Source of the DNA: Mycobacterium heckeshornense
GTDB lineage: Bacteria > Actinomycetota > Actinomycetes > Mycobacteriales > Mycobacteriaceae
Assembly: GCF_016592155.1 (NCBI RefSeq)
Contig: NZ_AP024237.1
Coordinates: forward strand, 1,922,001-1,986,000
Direction: 5' to 3'
DNA: 64,000 nt
Below, piece by piece: positions 15,897 to 23,422 of this stretch. The notes beneath the pieces were generated by a model. It was not told the DNA's origin. It did no database searches and worked only from the letters and a program-made list of their open reading frames with translations. How positions within the stretch are numbered: position 1 is the stretch's first letter; the number at the start of each line of letters is the position of its first letter. The position numbers and the translations under genes are program-made.

Positions 15897-18365
15897 TTAC
15901 CGACCCGCGGCCTCGACCTGTCGCGGCCGGCTCGGTGGCCGAAGCCACCACCACAGCAAGCCCGTGCCTACCACCGCGAACACGAGCAGCATCGCCATGT
16001 CGAACAGCCACTGCCCCGCCGAGTGGCCCCAAAGCGCGTCGCGCTCGGCCAGCGGATCGATCGAGTGCAGGTCGACGGTGGAAGCCTGAGCAGCGAACCC
16101 CCACCGGGACGGGAACAGCCACGAGACCTGCTCGAAGCCATCCCTGGCGGCCAGCGGGAACAAGCCGCCGGAGAACACCAGCGAGAGCAGCACGACCAGC
16201 ACGGCGATCGGCAACAGCAATTGCTTGTACCGCGCCAGCGCCGAGAGCACCAGGCCCACGATCACCGAGACGATTGCCGTGGCCGCACCGGTCACGTACA
16301 CCTCGACGGTGCCGCTGCCCAGCACATCGGCCCCGCGCGCGGGCGCGCCCTTGCCGAGCACGACGACGGTGATGACGAACGCGGTTTGCACCGTCGCAAG
16401 CAGGCCGAACACCAGAATTTTGGCGCCCAGATACGCCGAGGTCGCCAACCCCAGGTATTGCTCCCGGCGGAAGATGTTGTTTTCGCTGATCAGGTCGCGG
16501 ATGGTCAGCGCGGTGCCGATGCAGACGGCCGCCAGGGTAAGCACCGTCAGAAGCTCGACGGGTTCGTCCGGGCCGTTGCCGTACGGATCGGCGGCGCCCA
16601 GCCCGGTTGTGCCCGGCGTGACCAGGGCCAGCGCCGCGAAGAACAGCGGCAGGATGGTCAGGAAGATGGCGTAGCGCTGATCACCGAACACAAGCCATGC
16701 CTGGCGACGGGCGGCCACAGCGATCTGACGAACCAGGCCTAAACGGGCGGGACGGCCCAGCGGCGGCGCCGCAGCCGGGGCCGCCGGAGCGCCCTGTCGA
16801 CGCTGCAAAAAAGCGTTGTGGGCGCCGTGTGGATCGGTGCTGACCCGCCGCAGGATCTGCGACCAGTCGGTGGTGCCCATCGCCGCGTCGATCTCGTGTG
16901 GCGGACCGGCGAAGGCCGTCGTACCGGTCGAGGTGAGCAGCACCACCTGGTCGCACAGCTCGAGATGACGCGGCGACGTCGTCGCCAGCACCACGATCTG
17001 GCCGGCGTCGGCGAGTTCCCGCAGCCGCGTCATCGTCTGACGTTCCTGGGCCGGGTCGAGTCCCGCGGTCGGTTCGTCGAGAACCAGCAGTGGCGGCCGG
17101 GTGAGCAATTCCACTGCCAGCGTTGCGCGTCGGCGCTGCTCGTCGGAGAGGCTGCCCACCTGGGCCGTGCGCTGCGGGAGCAGCCCGAGTTCGCGCAGAA
17201 CCTGCTCCACCAGCTGTCTGCGCACGTCGGCGGGGGTGCCGGGCGGCAGCCGCAGCTCGGCGGCATAGCCGACGGCCTGTTCGACGGTGAGCTGGCAATG
17301 GAGGACATCGCCTTGCGGCACGATCCCGACGTACCGGCGCATGTACTCGGCGTGCACGTCGTGGCCGTCCAACCTGACCTGGCCGACGGTGGGTGTTACC
17401 GCTCCGGCGACGATGCCGACGAGTGCGGACGGAGCCGCGCTGGTCGGCGCGACAACGGCGGTCAGCGTGCCGCCGGTGGCCGTGAATGACACGTCGTCGA
17501 GTAGCGGATGCCCGTCGCCGGCCAGCCCGACATGGTAGGCCACAAGCTCCCGGGCGCCGGGTGCCGGACGGGACACCGGAGCGTCGCCGGCCGCCTGGTC
17601 GCCCGCCGGCAACCGACTGGTGGGGACCTGCTCATGGGGTCGGACCGCCGCGGCGGGCAGCAGGTTGTGTTCGGGCGTCGGCGGCGGCGAGGGCCACTGG
17701 GGCGGGGCCGGTGCCGGCACGGGCCGGGTGGGCAGCTCCGAGGGCGGCCGCGGTCGTGGTGGTGTCGTATCTGGACGCGGTCCGTGGGGCGGCGGTGCTT
17801 CTGCCTGGGGTGGCGACAACCGGACCGGCTGCGTCGGCGTCTGAGACGGCGGTTGGCCGTGCGGTCGGCGGGGCGGGTGTTGTGGCGGCGGACCCGGCCG
17901 CATCGCAGCGGCGGCTTGGCCGAACGGCGCAGGCGGCGGACGCCAGCTTGTCTGGGTGGGCGGTTGCGGTGGAGGCGGTGTGCGCGGAGCTGGCCGGCCG
18001 TGCGTCGCGGGGGGTGCCGGCCTTGCCGGCCCGGCTGCGTGTGCCGAGGCACCCAGGCGGAACAGCAGCCGAGGCCCGTACTGCGGATCACCGACAGCGA
18101 TGGTCTGGCCGTCGCGGATGCGTACCATCGGCACCCGCACGCCGGCGAGGTAAATGCCGTTTCGGCTCTGGTCGATTGCCACCCAGTGGTCGCCGGCGAA
18201 CCGCAGCACGAGATGCACCGGCGCGATCCACCGGCCGCCGCCGTCATCGAGGCGGAGATCGGACCGGCTGTCGTGCCCGACCGTGATGTCGCGGCCCGGC
18301 TGGAACGTGTAACTTGTGGATCCAACCCAAACGGTCAACGGGGAAGCGAACGCCTCGGTCCGCAT
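15897..18365 (-). CDS. FHA-domain ABC protein with degenerate ATPase, Rv1747-like
   Basis: An 822-residue protein: N-terminal FHA-like domain (about 11-103), a Pro-rich linker (107-270), an ABC nucleotide-binding domain (273-500) and an ABC2-type membrane domain with about six helices (560-815). The order is that of Rv1747, an exporter regulated by PknF, but with one FHA domain instead of two. The ATPase core is eroded: the Walker A position reads APTSAAPS (306-313) without the Lys, the signature is LSDEQ (406-410), and the H-loop is ATTSP without His. Walker B (LLVLDE, 426-431) remains. In the FHA domain the GR arginine is His31 and the SR pair is Ala48-Pro49, while His51 and Asn69-Gly70 remain. 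The frame is intact over 2.4 kb, so it is maintained. Likely a regulatory or heteromeric subunit; no transport function can be assumed. Confidence 0.85.
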   Translation of the reverse strand: MRTEAFASPLTVWVGSTSYTFQPGRDITVGHDSRSDLRLDDGGGRWIAPVHLVLRFAGDHWVAIDQSRNGIYLAGVRVPMVRIRDGQTIAVGDPQYGPRLLFRLGASAHAAGPARPAPPATHGRPAPRTPPPPQPPTQTSWRPPPAPFGQAAAAMRPGPPPQHPPRRPHGQPPSQTPTQPVRLSPPQAEAPPPHGPRPDTTPPRPRPPSELPTRPVPAPAPPQWPSPPPTPEHNLLPAAAVRPHEQVPTSRLPAGDQAAGDAPVSRPAPGARELVAYHVGLAGDGHPLLDDVSFTATGGTLTAVVAPTSAAPSALVGIVAGAVTPTVGQVRLDGHDVHAEYMRRYVGIVPQGDVLHCQLTVEQAVGYAAELRLPPGTPADVRRQLVEQVLRELGLLPQRTAQVGSLSDEQRRRATLAVELLTRPPLLVLDEPTAGLDPAQERQTMTRLRELADAGQIVVLATTSPRHLELCDQVVLLTSTGTTAFAGPPHEIDAAMGTTDWSQILRRVSTDPHGAHNAFLQRRQGAPAAPAAAPPLGRPARLGLVRQIAVAARRQAWLVFGDQRYAIFLTILPLFFAALALVTPGTTGLGAADPYGNGPDEPVELLTVLTLAAVCIGTALTIRDLISENNIFRREQYLGLATSAYLGAKILVFGLLATVQTAFVITVVVLGKGAPARGADVLGSGTVEVYVTGAATAIVSVIVGLVLSALARYKQLLLPIAVLVVLLSLVFSGGLFPLAARDGFEQVSWLFPSRWGFAAQASTVDLHSIDPLAERDALWGHSAGQWLFDMAMLLVFAVVGTGLLWWWLRPPSRPRQVEAAGR

Positions 18366-18468
18366 GGGCCGCCACCTTTCATTACCCGTCGGGGCCGATC
18401 GATGGTTGTCTACCCACCGCCACGATTATCTATCGAACAGCGCCGCTCAGCCGGGTGCGAGCCCGCCG

Positions 18469-18969
18469 CTAACGGGTGGCGGTGTGCGGAGGTGGCGAGG
18501 CGTCGTCGAGGATCCGCCGCAACACCGCCACAGCCTCGGTCAATACCCGCCGCTCCGCGGGCTCGAGACGAGCCAGCTGCGGTGCGATCGCAGACGCGCG
18601 GTCGGCGCGGACACGGTCCAGAGCGCGCACGCCCGCGGGAGTAATGCGGATCCGCACGGCCCGCGCGTCTCGTGGATCGACCGTGCGGGTAACCAGACCG
18701 GCGTCCTCCAACCGTCGCACCTGTGTGGTCATCGTGGGCTGTGAGCAGTGGTCCATGGCGGCCAGGTCACAGATGCGGGCTTCGCCGTGGGCCTCGATGG
18801 TCGCCAGCAGCCGGGCCTGCGCCACCGGCAGGGGCAGCTGGATGCGTTGGGTGGCCAGCCGATTGAGCCGGGCGACGACGGCCAGAAGCTCCGCTCCCAG
18901 CCCGGAGTGGGCTTCGACGCTCGCGTCATCGCCCAGCGCGGCACCGTTAGTGGTGCCAGATGAAGACAT
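18469..18969 (-). CDS. MarR-family regulator, Rv2327-like
   Basis: A 166-residue winged-helix regulator: RICDLAAMDHCSQPTMTTQVRRLEDAGLVTRTVDPRDARAVRIRITPAG is the recognition helix and wing, flanked by dimerisation helices. ATG at 18969 gives MSSSGTTNG and the usual length; an ATG at 18984 and a much longer frame exist, but a palindrome at 18982-18997 would then lie inside the coding region. Divergent from the ECF transporter gene (104 bp between starts), the arrangement of Rv2327/Rv2326c, so it probably controls that transporter and itself. Ligand unknown. Confidence 0.88.
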   Translation of the reverse strand: MSSSGTTNGAALGDDASVEAHSGLGAELLAVVARLNRLATQRIQLPLPVAQARLLATIEAHGEARICDLAAMDHCSQPTMTTQVRRLEDAGLVTRTVDPRDARAVRIRITPAGVRALDRVRADRASAIAPQLARLEPAERRVLTEAVAVLRRILDDASPPPHTATR

Positions 18970-18981
18970 ACCCCATGATTG

Positions 18982-18997
18982 CATAGCTTTGCTATGT
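18982..18997. promoter_or_regulatory. Candidate MarR operator
   Basis: CATAGC-TTT-GCTATG is a perfect 6-bp inverted repeat (18982-18996) in the divergent MarR/ECF intergenic region, 13 bp upstream of the chosen MarR start. Size and position suit an autoregulatory MarR site. Confidence 0.55.
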
Positions 18998-19073
18998 AGA
19001 ACAACGTGGTGCTGAGCCCTGGGCGGACGCCGGGGCACCTGCGACACCCTCGTTGACTGGCAGAATCGGTGCA

Positions 19074-21113
19074 ATGGAGTCGACCATCCGGGGTGGCGCG
19101 CCCCAAACGCGGGCCCGCGCACTGCGGGCCGCGGAATTGTCGCAGGCCTCGGTTATGGCGGCGTTGTGTGCGGCGACCGCGATTATCGCGGTGGTCCTGC
19201 CGTTCGGGGCTGCGCTGGCGCTGTTGGGCACGGTGCCCATGGGACTGCTCGCCTACCGCTACCGTCTGCGGGTGCTGATCGCCGCGGCCGTGGCCGCCGG
19301 CATGATCGCCTTCTTGATCGCCGGTGTGGGCGGCTTCATGACGGTCGTCAACAGCGCCTATGTCGGCGGCCTGACCGGCATCGTCAAACGCCGGCACCGC
19401 GGCACCCCGACCGTGATCGCCGCTTCTGTTGTCGCCGGGGCAGCGTTCGGCGCCGCGATGATCGTGGCTCTGGGTGCGCTGGCTCGGCTGCGCCATCTGC
19501 TCTTCGACACGGTCACCGCAAACATCGACGGCATCGCGTCGGTGCTGGCGCGGCTGGGTCTCGAGGTGGCCGCCGACCATCTGAGGCGGTTTCTCGCCGT
19601 CGTGCTGCATCACTGGCCGTGGCTGGTGCTCGGCAATGCCGTCGTGACCGTCGTCATCGTGTCGCTGGTCGGTTGGTGGGCGCTGTCGCGGGTGCTGGAC
19701 CGGATGCGGGGCATCCCCGATGTGCACAAGCTGGACGCCTCGGCCGACAGTGGTCCGATTGCGCCGGTGCCGGTGCGGCTGGACCGCGTCCGGTTCCGCT
19801 ACCCGGGCACCGACCACGACGCATTGCCGCCGGTGAGCTTGGAGGTAGGGACCGGCGAACACATCGCGGTCACCGGCGCCAACGGCTCGGGAAAAACCAC
19901 GCTGATGCTGATCCTGGCGGGTCGCGAACCCACCTCGGGCACGGTGGAGCGACCCGGCGCGGTGGGACTGGGTCGGATCGGCGGCACCGCTGTGGTCATG
20001 CAACACCCGGAAAGTCAGGTGCTTGGCAGCCGTGTCGCCGACGACGTGGTGTGGGGGCTGCCGGCCGGCACGACCACCGACGTGAGCCAGCTGCTGAGCG
20101 AGGTCGGCCTCGACGGATTGGCTGAGCGTGATACCGGAAGCTTGTCCGGCGGTGAGTTGCAGCGGCTGGCCTTGGCGGCCGCGCTGGCACGCGAACCCGC
20201 GCTGCTTATCGCCGACGAAGTCACCAGCATGGTCGACCACCGGGGCCGCGACGCCCTGCTCGGCATTCTTTCCGGGCTGACCAAACGCCACCGCACCGCG
20301 CTGGTACACATCACCCACTACAACAACGAAGCCGAGTCGGCCGACCGGGTGATCAACCTCAGCGATACGCCGGACAACACCGACATGGTCGAAACCACGG
20401 CAGCACCGCCGCCAACTGCCCCGGTCGGTGACGAGTTTGCGGAGCCGGTACTCGAATTGCGCGGCGTCGGCCACGAATACAGCAGCGGCACACCGTGGGC
20501 CAAGACCGCGTTGCGCGACGTCAGTTTTGTGGTCCACCAGGGTGACGGCGTACTGATCCACGGCGGCAACGGCTCGGGTAAGTCCACGCTGGCCTGGATC
20601 ATGGCCGGACTGACGATTCCGACCATGGGCACATGTCTGCTCGACGGGCGTCCCACCCACGAGCAGGTGGGTACGGTGGCGTTGTCGTTCCAGGCCGCCC
20701 GCCTGCAGTTGATGCGCAGCCGCGTCGACCTGGAAGTGGCTTCAGCAGCGGGGTTTTCGCCGCACGATCACCACCGCGTAATCGCCGCACTAGGCGCTGT
20801 CGGATTGGATGCCTCGCTGGCAAAGCGGCGCATCGACCAACTCAGCGGTGGCCAGATGCGGCGACTGGTGCTGGCCGGGCTGCTGGCGCGCTCGCCCCGG
20901 GCCTTGATCCTCGACGAGCCGCTGGCCGGGCTGGACGCCGCCACCCAGCGTGGTCTGCTGCGGCTGCTGGAAGATTTGCGCCGCGACCGGGATTTGACGG
21001 TGGTGGTCATCTCACATGACTTCACCGGGCTCGAGCAGTTGTGCCCGCGCACCTTGCACTTGCGCGACGGTGTGCTCGAACCGGTGTCGGCCGCGGCCAG
21101 AGGCATGTCATGA
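19074..21113 (+). CDS. ECF-type transporter: fused S-component-like membrane domain and two ATPases (Rv2326c-like)
   Basis: A 679-residue protein. Residues about 25-205 form a five- to six-helix membrane domain of DUF2232/S-component type, followed by two complete ABC ATPases. ATPase 1: Walker [10 protein letters not shown], signature LSGGE, Walker B LLIADE. ATPase 2: Walker [10 protein letters not shown], signature LSGGQ, Walker B ALILDE. This fuses the substrate-binding part and the A and A' subunits of an energy-coupling-factor vitamin or metal importer in one chain. ATG at 19074 replaces the upstream in-frame start at 19053. It overlaps the EcfT gene by 4 bp (ATGA). Confidence 0.9.
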
Positions 21114-21975: not shown

Positions 21976-23334
21976 TCACGGGTCGTCGTCGCACAGCAAC
22001 TCCTCGGGATGGTGGAACATGTTGACGCGGGGTTGTCCGTAGTCCAGATCTGGCGGCGGAATCCATTCGGTGCGCCCGTAGGCGCGTTTGCGGGTTTGCC
22101 ATCCACCGGGTGTGACGAGCTTGTGGTTGGGTCCGCAGGCGAGGGTCAAATCGTCGATGTGGGTGGTTTTGGTCGTCGCCCAGGGCGTGACATGGTGTAC
22201 CTCGGTCAGGTAGCCGGGCACGTCGCAGCCCGGCGCCGTGCACCCACGGTCCTTGGCGTACAGCACTATTCGCTGAGCTGGCGACGCAATCCGCTTGGTG
22301 TGATACAGGGCCAATGCCCGGCCATTGTCGAAGATGGCTAGGTAGTGGTGAGCATGCTGCGCCAGCCGGATGACCTCGCTCATCGGCAGCAACGAACCGC
22401 CGCCGGTGAGGCCTCGTCCGCATGCGGCCTGTAGCTCCCGCCAAGTGGTGGTCACGATGATGCTGGTCGGCAATCCGTTGTGGTGGCCCAATTGTCCGGA
22501 GGCGAGCATGGCGCGCAGCACCGCAGCGAGCGCGTCGTGGTTTCGTTGACCCGCGCAGCGGGTGTCGGAGTCGATGGCTTCTTGCGAGGGGGTGCCGTCG
22601 ACCACCGGCGCGCCGACACCATGCGGGTTGCACATGCCGGGCGCGGCCCAGCGGGCCAAAACGGCCTCGAGGCTGGCCCGCACGGCCGGGGTCACCCAGC
22701 CGCGGATCGGTGACATGCCGTCGACGTCCTGCTTGCCCAGCGTGAGCCCGCGGCGTCGGGCGCGATCCTCGTCGCTGAAGTTGCCGTCGGGATTGAGGCA
22801 ATCGGCCAGTTTGTCGGCGAGCTTTGCCACGTGCTCCGGGCGAAACTGGGCGGCGAGCTTCGCCAAATGCGCTTCGGCCTGCTCGCGCGTTGGCTCGTCG
22901 ACCCAGCATGGCAGGTGGTGCAGGAACGTGCGGATGACCGCCACGTGGGCGGCGCCGATCGTGCCGGCGCGTTGCCCGGCGGCGACGGCAGCCAGCCGCG
23001 GCTGCAAGGGCTGGCCGGTCAGCGCGCGACGCTGCCCGAGGTCTTCGGCTTCCCGGATCCACCGCGCCGCCTCGGCGCGACTGATCCGGAGCCGATCAGC
23101 CAGCGCATGCGAGACTTTGCCGCCGATCTCGGCCGGGATGGCTTCGTGGCGGATCCCGTTGACCAACTCATGACGCGGCACCGGCAGGCGCCGCGTTTCT
23201 CGCTCCAACCGATCCAACAGCTGGAAGCGCTGGCGGGTTGTTAGCCCGTCGAATGACAGCCCGACCAGCCCCGACACCGCTTCGTGGAGCGCGTCGAGAC
23301 GCTGCTCGATCGCTTCCAACCCAATCGAAGACAT
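21976..23334 (-). CDS. DUF222/HNH endonuclease-domain protein (13E12 family)
   Basis: A 452-residue member of the mycobacterial 13E12 family: N-terminal helical DUF222 domain (about 10-300) and a C-terminal HNH nuclease motif ([11 protein letters not shown]...HHVTPWA...ACGPNHKLV). These proteins are numerous and variable in copy number in mycobacteria, and some are in the SOS regulon; a DNA role is likely but unproven. ATG at 23334 was preferred to 23367 because a -10 (TACCAT, 23341-23346 on the reverse strand) sits 6 bp before it, giving a leaderless transcript, and a LexA-type box covers this point. Confidence 0.88.
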
Positions 23335-23340
23335 GTTCGA
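23325..23340. promoter_or_regulatory. LexA (SOS) box
   Basis: TCGAAG-ACAT-GTTCGA matches the mycobacterial SOS box TCGAAC-N4-GTTCGA at 11 of 12 positions. It covers the start codon of the DUF222/HNH gene and abuts its -10, so LexA bound there would block initiation. Confidence 0.75.
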
Positions 23341-23422
23341 ATGGTATCGGCGAGCACCGACACCCAACTATCCGCAAGGCCCGCGCTGTGGATGAATTCC
23401 CAACTGTGGATTAACAGCCGCG

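Follow-up and report, generated by a model that had tools for sequence, protein, structure and literature searches.

The 822-residue protein encoded at positions 15897–18365 (minus strand) of the Mycobacterium heckeshornense window analysed here, a stretch of 64,000 nucleotides from a genome assembled as one contig of 4,957,188 bases, is probably an ABC pseudoenzyme that has become fixed, a half-transporter of the ABCG type with an N-terminal FHA domain that would act as an ATP-independent homodimer. Because its ATPase motifs are mostly lost and yet the gene is kept beside the same regulator in relatives, it probably performs a job other than pumping. All features of the protein lie on the minus strand, and "canonical" in the list that follows refers to the 17 canonical FHA-ABC proteins of the alignment.

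15897–18365, minus strand: putative FHA-ABC pseudo-transporter, 822 aa (frame scan, Pfam, motif alignment).
18051–18344, minus strand: single FHA domain, residues 8–105; closest solved structure Rv1747 FHA-1 (6ccd) (Pfam, PDB search).
18273–18275, minus strand: residue 31, His, where 16 of the 17 canonical proteins have the FHA Arg (GR) (alignment).
18222–18224, minus strand: residue 48, Ala, where 16 of the 17 canonical proteins have the FHA Ser (alignment).
17562–18050, minus strand: Pro-rich linker, residues 106–268, with predicted local distance difference test scores (pLDDT) mostly <50; the canonical second FHA domain is absent (Pfam, model).
16866–17552, minus strand: ABC nucleotide-binding domain (NBD) fold, residues 272–500 (Pfam, model).
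17427–17450, minus strand: lost Walker A, APTSAAPS, residues 306–313 (motif alignment).
17136–17150, minus strand: lost signature, LSDEQ, residues 406–410 (motif alignment).
17067–17090, minus strand: retained Walker B, LLVLDEPT, residues 426–433 (motif alignment).
16977–16979, minus strand: H-loop position 463, His replaced by Thr (motif alignment).
15930–16730, minus strand: ABC-2/ABCG-type membrane domain (TMD), residues 546–812, six helices (Pfam, model).

The frame extends for 822 codons from its ATG and for 842 codons from stop to stop. Three FHA-ABC paralogues from the same genome read IGPSGAGKST or IGGSGAGKTT at Walker A, LSGGQR at the signature and VTHS or VTHM at the H-loop; the aligned positions of the 822-aa protein read VAPTSAAPSA, LSDEQR and ATTS, with the Lys, three glycines and the last Thr of the P-loop all substituted. 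The Q-loop Gln (351), the Walker B motif (426–433) and the D-loop GLD are still present. Compared with an ABCG-like half-transporter, the protein thus has the Walker B Asp-Glu pair and lacks the Walker A Lys, LSGGQ and the H-loop His. Pfam recognises one FHA, one ABC_tran and one ABC2_membrane domain, and the structure model (mean pLDDT 80.7) contains six long membrane helices (563–582, 601–621, 642–672, 685–710, 714–731 and 783–808), so that the NBD precedes a six-helix ABC-2 membrane domain as in the ABCG fold. The initial annotation, made from the sequence alone, had described three lost ATPase signatures in an intact frame with Walker B and the six-helix membrane domain retained, and both descriptions agree with the frame, the paralogue alignment and the model.

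The FHA domain has a sole structure match, Rv1747 FHA-1 (6ccd, E 8.7e-16). At its phospho-site the Arg is replaced by His31 and the Ser by Ala48, while His51 and Asn69 are retained, and the alignment therefore confirms the earlier claim of a single FHA domain without the Arg and Ser that contact phosphothreonine. Of the features of an Rv1747-type exporter, the protein has an FHA domain related to FHA-1, and it has neither two FHA domains nor the full phospho-site. A check for an intact Rv1747 type in the same genome, proposed earlier, found the three full canonical paralogues (L009, 827 aa; L010, 820 aa; and L011, 883 aa), which all carry GKS/T, LSGGQ and VTH and share 45–53% TMD and 51–58% NBD identity with the 822-aa protein. 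L010 is likely the Rv1747 counterpart, since it adjoins a Ser/Thr-kinase (Pkinase-domain, Pfam) protein and its N-terminal region hits each of the two solved FHA domains of Rv1747 (PDB 6ccd and 6cah). Rv1747 and the three paralogues resemble the 822-aa protein in having an N-terminal FHA domain, a long linker and an NBD followed by an ABC-2 membrane domain. However, the paralogues each have two FHA stretches and an intact Walker A, signature and H-loop, whereas the 822-aa protein has one FHA domain, retains of the ATPase motifs only Walker B, the Q-loop and the D-loop, and is located behind a MarR gene. No PknF-type kinase lies next to it; by Pfam and locus comparison its neighbours are MarR and ACOX.

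The same losses are widespread among relatives. Two protein searches, one giving 1723 matches at E ≤ 1e-50 and a second, started from a clade-II copy (defined below), giving 634 matches at E ≤ 1e-100, each contributed their best 120 matches to a set of 208 distinct relatives, which is enriched for near kin and is no census. The H-loop His is absent from 194 of the 208, the other 14 being canonical, and in 187 of the 194 the Walker A Lys is gone as well. The second signature Gly is replaced by Glu or Asp in 186 of the 194 degenerate proteins, kept in four and replaced by another residue in four, and the frames of the 194 range from 587 to 953 aa. The degenerate motifs occur in entries named M. 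marinum, M. ulcerans, M. kansasii, M. asiaticum, M. riyadhense, M. simiae, M. decipiens and M. paragordonae; among the best 120 of the 1723 matches, the closest named relative is M. xenopi P0002 (84% identity). The substitutions that the initial annotation proposed to look for in orthologues are therefore present, and its framing of them as the property of one gene holds as far as the losses are real, but they are a family trait in many slow-grower species. Their spread over 194 of 208 relatives argues against private decay, and a single recent decay or a sequencing error was rejected on this ground.

For the trees we used a 123-row set, comprising the best 120 first-search matches, the window protein and its three paralogues, with the duplicate P0001 removed. 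Seventeen rows are canonical, six retain the Lys of Walker A without the signature or H-loop, 99 have lost all three motifs, and P0033 has lost Walker A and the H-loop but retains LTGG. The H-loop His is missing in 106/106 degenerate rows, and the Walker B Asp and Glu are present in 104/106 and 97/106, respectively. The residue at the second signature Gly is acidic in 59/61, 38/39 and 6/6 rows of the three degenerate sets, counts in which P0011 sits in the wrong set (clade II), the tree placing it on the clade-I side. Fifteen short forms (591–665 aa) have no FHA domain (P0004–P0007, P0048, P0051, P0059, P0062, P0068, P0074, P0095, P0103, P0111, P0114 and P0117).

In both a quick tree of the 123 rows and a careful tree of 72 rows, built with the motif columns removed, the canonical FHA-ABC proteins form one side of a branch (support 100/100 in the careful tree). 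With a root assumed among the canonical proteins, without an outside outgroup, the degenerate rows form one clade with two large branches, clade I, which includes the 822-aa protein, and clade II. The six Lys-keeping rows, five of which have the whole GSGK, fall on the clade-I side. A single common Walker A loss is disfavoured by the approximately unbiased test (p-AU 0.012, for a group named after the tree was seen), and the same test does not reject a clade I that excludes the six Lys-keeping rows (p-AU 0.31). The replacement letters at Walker A also differ, being mostly GPSEASTSA in clade I and GPSAARNSA in clade II. The family would descend from Rv1747-like FHA-ABC exporters, and the simplest order, read from the motifs on the tree, is that the common ancestor lost the signature and H-loop first and that the loss of Walker A followed, either on two or more occasions and most simply in two lineages, or once with a later regain. 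The initial annotation had held that orthologues with an intact Walker A would mark a recently decaying gene. All four syntenic copies (below) have a dead Walker A, and Lys-keeping relatives do exist, but because this six-row sister group has the Lys and no signature or H-loop, the loss appears old and stepwise rather than recent.

The phospho-residues of the FHA domain have eroded in parallel and unevenly across the family. They are present in 16 or 17 of the 17 canonical rows and in all six Lys-keeping rows. Among 44 clade-I rows the Arg is found in 30, the Ser in 22, the His in 20 and the Asn in 2, and the corresponding counts among 38 clade-II rows are 3, 2, 2 and 23. In the small group of the 822-aa protein (three rows with an FHA domain), Arg and Ser are gone from all three, His is present in all three and Asn in one.

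The genomic setting of the gene was compared across nine genomes of the genus, including that of the window, of which six are near-complete and three (G003, G007 and G010) are incomplete (70–84%). The regulator upstream of the gene is:

18469–19122, minus strand: MarR-family regulator, separated by 103 nt from the downstream FHA-ABC start; start codon provisional (Pfam, synteny).

A dead FHA-ABC gene lies directly behind MarR in 4/9 genomes (4/6 near-complete: G000, G001, G008 and G009). All four copies are full-length as DNA, with an ECF-type ABC gene on the other side of MarR in each, and the gaps from the MarR stop to the FHA-ABC start, on the same strand, are 103, 59, 68 and 3 nt. A CbiQ gene is present in G000, G001 and G008, the G009 contig ending inside the ECF gene, and ACOX is present in G000, G008 and G009, the G001 contig ending before it. 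The other eight genomes yielded 25 FHA-ABC frames, comprising 20 canonical frames, the three dead syntenic copies and two contig-cut frames whose readable motifs are kept; two further G009 frames (L055 and L056) are canonical. The motif reading left out three weaker or partial matches (G009 C169 and C308, and G008 C1:1634736), and L029 is a duplicate of L054. No dead copy was found in the near-complete G002 and G006, which gave one canonical copy each, or in the incomplete G003, G007 and G010; the MarR locus was not inspected in these five genomes. The G008 copy (L042:6930–9533) has also lost Walker B, reading VEGPGAGLD as against LDEPTSGLD. Canonical FHA-ABC genes also occur in tandem arrays (L043, L045 and L026), with three genes in G008 and G009 and two in G001, and a further G008 locus (L051:1–11980) holds two FHA-ABC genes, 37–39% identical to L009, between kinase frames, two of three of which are Pfam-confirmed and one of these with a PknH_C domain.

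We assessed selection by the ratio of nonsynonymous to synonymous substitution rates (dN/dS), a rough measure here since synonymous divergence (dS) is high. For the clade-II pair G008/G009 the ratio was 0.28 overall, 0.23 (0.15–0.34) in the NBD, 0.22 (0.15–0.31) in the TMD, 0.23 (0.12–0.42) in the FHA domain and 0.48 (0.32–0.70) in the linker. Canonical pairs of the same two genomes gave 0.08 (NBD) and 0.18 (TMD) in one case and 0.03 and 0.07 in the other, and the neighbouring ECF gene gave 0.15. The NBD of the clade-II pair is thus selected but no more than its membrane domain, which is what a pseudoenzyme should show, a pattern that indicates purifying selection with the catalytic constraint relaxed. 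Two other degenerate pairs gave 0.37 and 0.42, and the neighbours 0.10–0.17 (ACOX), 0.05–0.29 (MarR) and 0.24–0.26 (valid ECF pairs). At the protein level, the 822-aa protein is 89% (NBD), 91% (TMD), 90% (FHA) and 73% (linker) identical to the M. xenopi copy, which points to constraint on its own branch as well. The earlier claim that the open frame implies selection for a non-ATPase role is supported, in that the losses are real and selection is purifying, in the clade-II pair only.

These data bear on whether the gene is simply decaying, with a frame that is open by chance. Such decay would fit the loss of FHA recognition, the rows without an FHA domain, the linker ratio of 0.48, the ratios of 0.46–0.54 for pairs that include the 822-codon gene and the loss of Walker B (VEGP) from the G008 copy. 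However, degenerate frames of 587–953 aa persist in 194 relatives (open by construction) on several deep branches, four copies are full-length as DNA, the NBD and TMD ratios of the G008/G009 pair are far below 1, and the replacement residues are recurrent, not random. A chance open frame was rejected on dN/dS, and decay is in our view very improbable.

The pattern of losses also bears on how the protein would assemble. In an ABC dimer, Walker A of each chain opposes its partner's signature. In Pdr5 and ABCG5/G8 the dead halves are divided in such a way that one canonical site survives. Here a single chain carries the two dead halves of the ATP site, which can oppose one another in a homodimer only, and this favours a homodimer over a Pdr5-like asymmetric pump. 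A subunit that instead pairs with one of the three intact paralogues and lowers or tunes its activity, in a dominant-negative or regulatory manner, is unlikely, although their TMD and NBD identities to the 822-aa protein are substantial, 20 of the 30 columns that are fixed in canonical and different in degenerate rows lie in the NBD, so that the TMD pairing surfaces may match, and a mycobacterial heterodimer with one degenerate site, MsRv1273c/72c, has been reported (PMC12038006). With a canonical paralogue as partner, neither site would be intact, since the dead Walker A would face LSGGQ and the live Walker A LSDEQ. A complete canonical site can thus form neither in a homodimer nor with any of the intact paralogues examined, though some other partner may supply one, whereas known asymmetric pumps are described as retaining one whole site. 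In addition, none of the four loci shows a conserved pairing with a canonical paralogue gene, the neighbours being MarR, ACOX and ECF. The "dominant partner", one of three roles proposed by the initial annotation, is therefore not the best of them, the acidic signature and dead Walker A being on one chain and opposed only in a homodimer.

A protein that still works by binding ATP without hydrolysis, through Walker B, the Q-loop, the D-loop and a non-canonical P-loop, seems quite improbable. In the 822-aa protein the P-loop has exchanged its Lys, three glycines and its last Thr all at once, and an acidic signature residue opposite them would repel the γ-phosphate of ATP. The Walker B Asp/Glu and the D-loop are nevertheless widely kept, and the degenerate site of Pdr5 is reported still to hold nucleotide (PMC8421411).

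Under the ATP-independent homodimer reading, the 822-aa protein would not productively bind and hydrolyse ATP, and its NBDs would no longer cycle with ATP in the dimer. Its expression would be controlled by MarR, and its membrane domain may still bind the same envelope lipid, or lipid-like ligand, as the active paralogues, making the protein an ATP-independent receptor, buffer or brake instead of a pump.

Several observations weigh against this reading. The homodimer is an argument from geometry, and residual ATP binding through the retained Walker B, Q-loop Gln and D-loop could still occur. The six-row group, five of whose members have GSGK facing an acidic signature, is at odds with a simple mutual loss. 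An acidic residue in place of the second signature Gly is also not universal, the M. xenopi P0002 signature being LSDGQ. Pairs with the 822-codon gene gave dN/dS of 0.46–0.54 at dS 0.85–1.01, compared with 0.19–0.22 for the canonical orthologue set, and selection may be relaxed in its branch. The gene is dispensable across the genus, since two of the six near-complete genomes gave no dead copy. Relatives taken from the database have open frames by construction, and dead copies were seen as DNA in only four cases. MarR control is putative, and a promoter/terminator scan of 18300–19200 found nothing.

A more specific form of the homodimer, in which protein–protein contacts between the NBDs replace ATP, with Glu409 placed opposite the partner's rewritten P-loop (Arg311 in clade II) in a MarR-expressed, permanently held envelope-lipid receptor, is speculative and rather improbable; Cys413/Cys456 in place of Arg413/Arg456 may add a redox switch. 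Arg311 is present in the rewritten P-loop of 38/38 clade-II rows. The 822-aa protein has neither Arg311 nor the Cys pair, and only the general homodimer claim therefore applies to it. Residues 413 and 456 (822-aa numbering) are Arg-Arg in 34/34 canonical rows; in the 194 degenerate rows they are Cys-Cys in 121, Arg-Arg in 56, Arg-Gln in 6, Leu-Cys in 4, Arg-His in 3, Leu-Arg in 3 and Ser-Cys in 1, and 116 of the 121 Cys-Cys rows also have Arg at position 311.

Among known ABCG proteins, ABCG1 and ABCG2 are active ATPases, unlike what is proposed for the 822-aa protein. The fungal PDR transporters Pdr5 and Cdr1 are also ABCG proteins: the degenerate site of Pdr5 lacks the Walker A Lys and the H-loop His, and its signature LNVEQ has the same Gly-to-Glu change as LSDEQ. 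However, the dead halves of Pdr5 are split over two NBDs with one canonical site kept, and its degenerate Walker B lacks the Glu, whereas the 822-aa protein keeps Walker B and has the other three motifs dead on one chain. ABCG5/ABCG8 likewise share the ABCG fold and a signature change accompanied by a Walker A change but form a heterodimer in which only NBS1 is degenerate and the Walker A Lys is replaced by Arg. No description of such pseudo-ABC proteins was found in the titles and abstract openings listed from the open-licence literature.

Other searches covered the protein and its surroundings. With NCBIfam (157 families), the best 25 of 157 were all below their curated cut-offs, and the one partial PADLOC match (E ≤ 1e-10), mad3 at residues 396–478, was rejected as a generic ABC region. 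A scan of a genome-contig collection gave five loci of distant ABC proteins (26–33%), and a short-peptide PDB search around LSDEQ, with ABCA4 on top, added nothing. No dead copy turned up in the plasmid search, which gave two canonical FHA-ABC fusions, from M. branderi and M. adipatum plasmids (L017:6161–9439 and L018:6065–9367); each joins a canonical FHA-FHA-ABC-TMD protein to a PknH_C sensor domain at the C-terminus. Elsewhere in the window, positions 21976–23367 (minus strand) encode a 463-aa DUF222 and HNH protein, which we take to be of the 13E12-repeat kind.

It is well established that asymmetric ABC pumps can have a degenerate ATP site as one of their halves; a lineage under selection in which a single half-transporter chain carries a dead Walker A, signature and H-loop is a different case. 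Records labelled "ATP-binding" (such as M. marinum E11 P0157 and M. kubicae P0096) may be proteins that use no ATP. The presence of intact paralogues in the same genome makes the homodimer, heterodimer and decoy models separable by direct experiment, and the family raises the question of which functions remain for an ABC exporter fold that uses no ATP.
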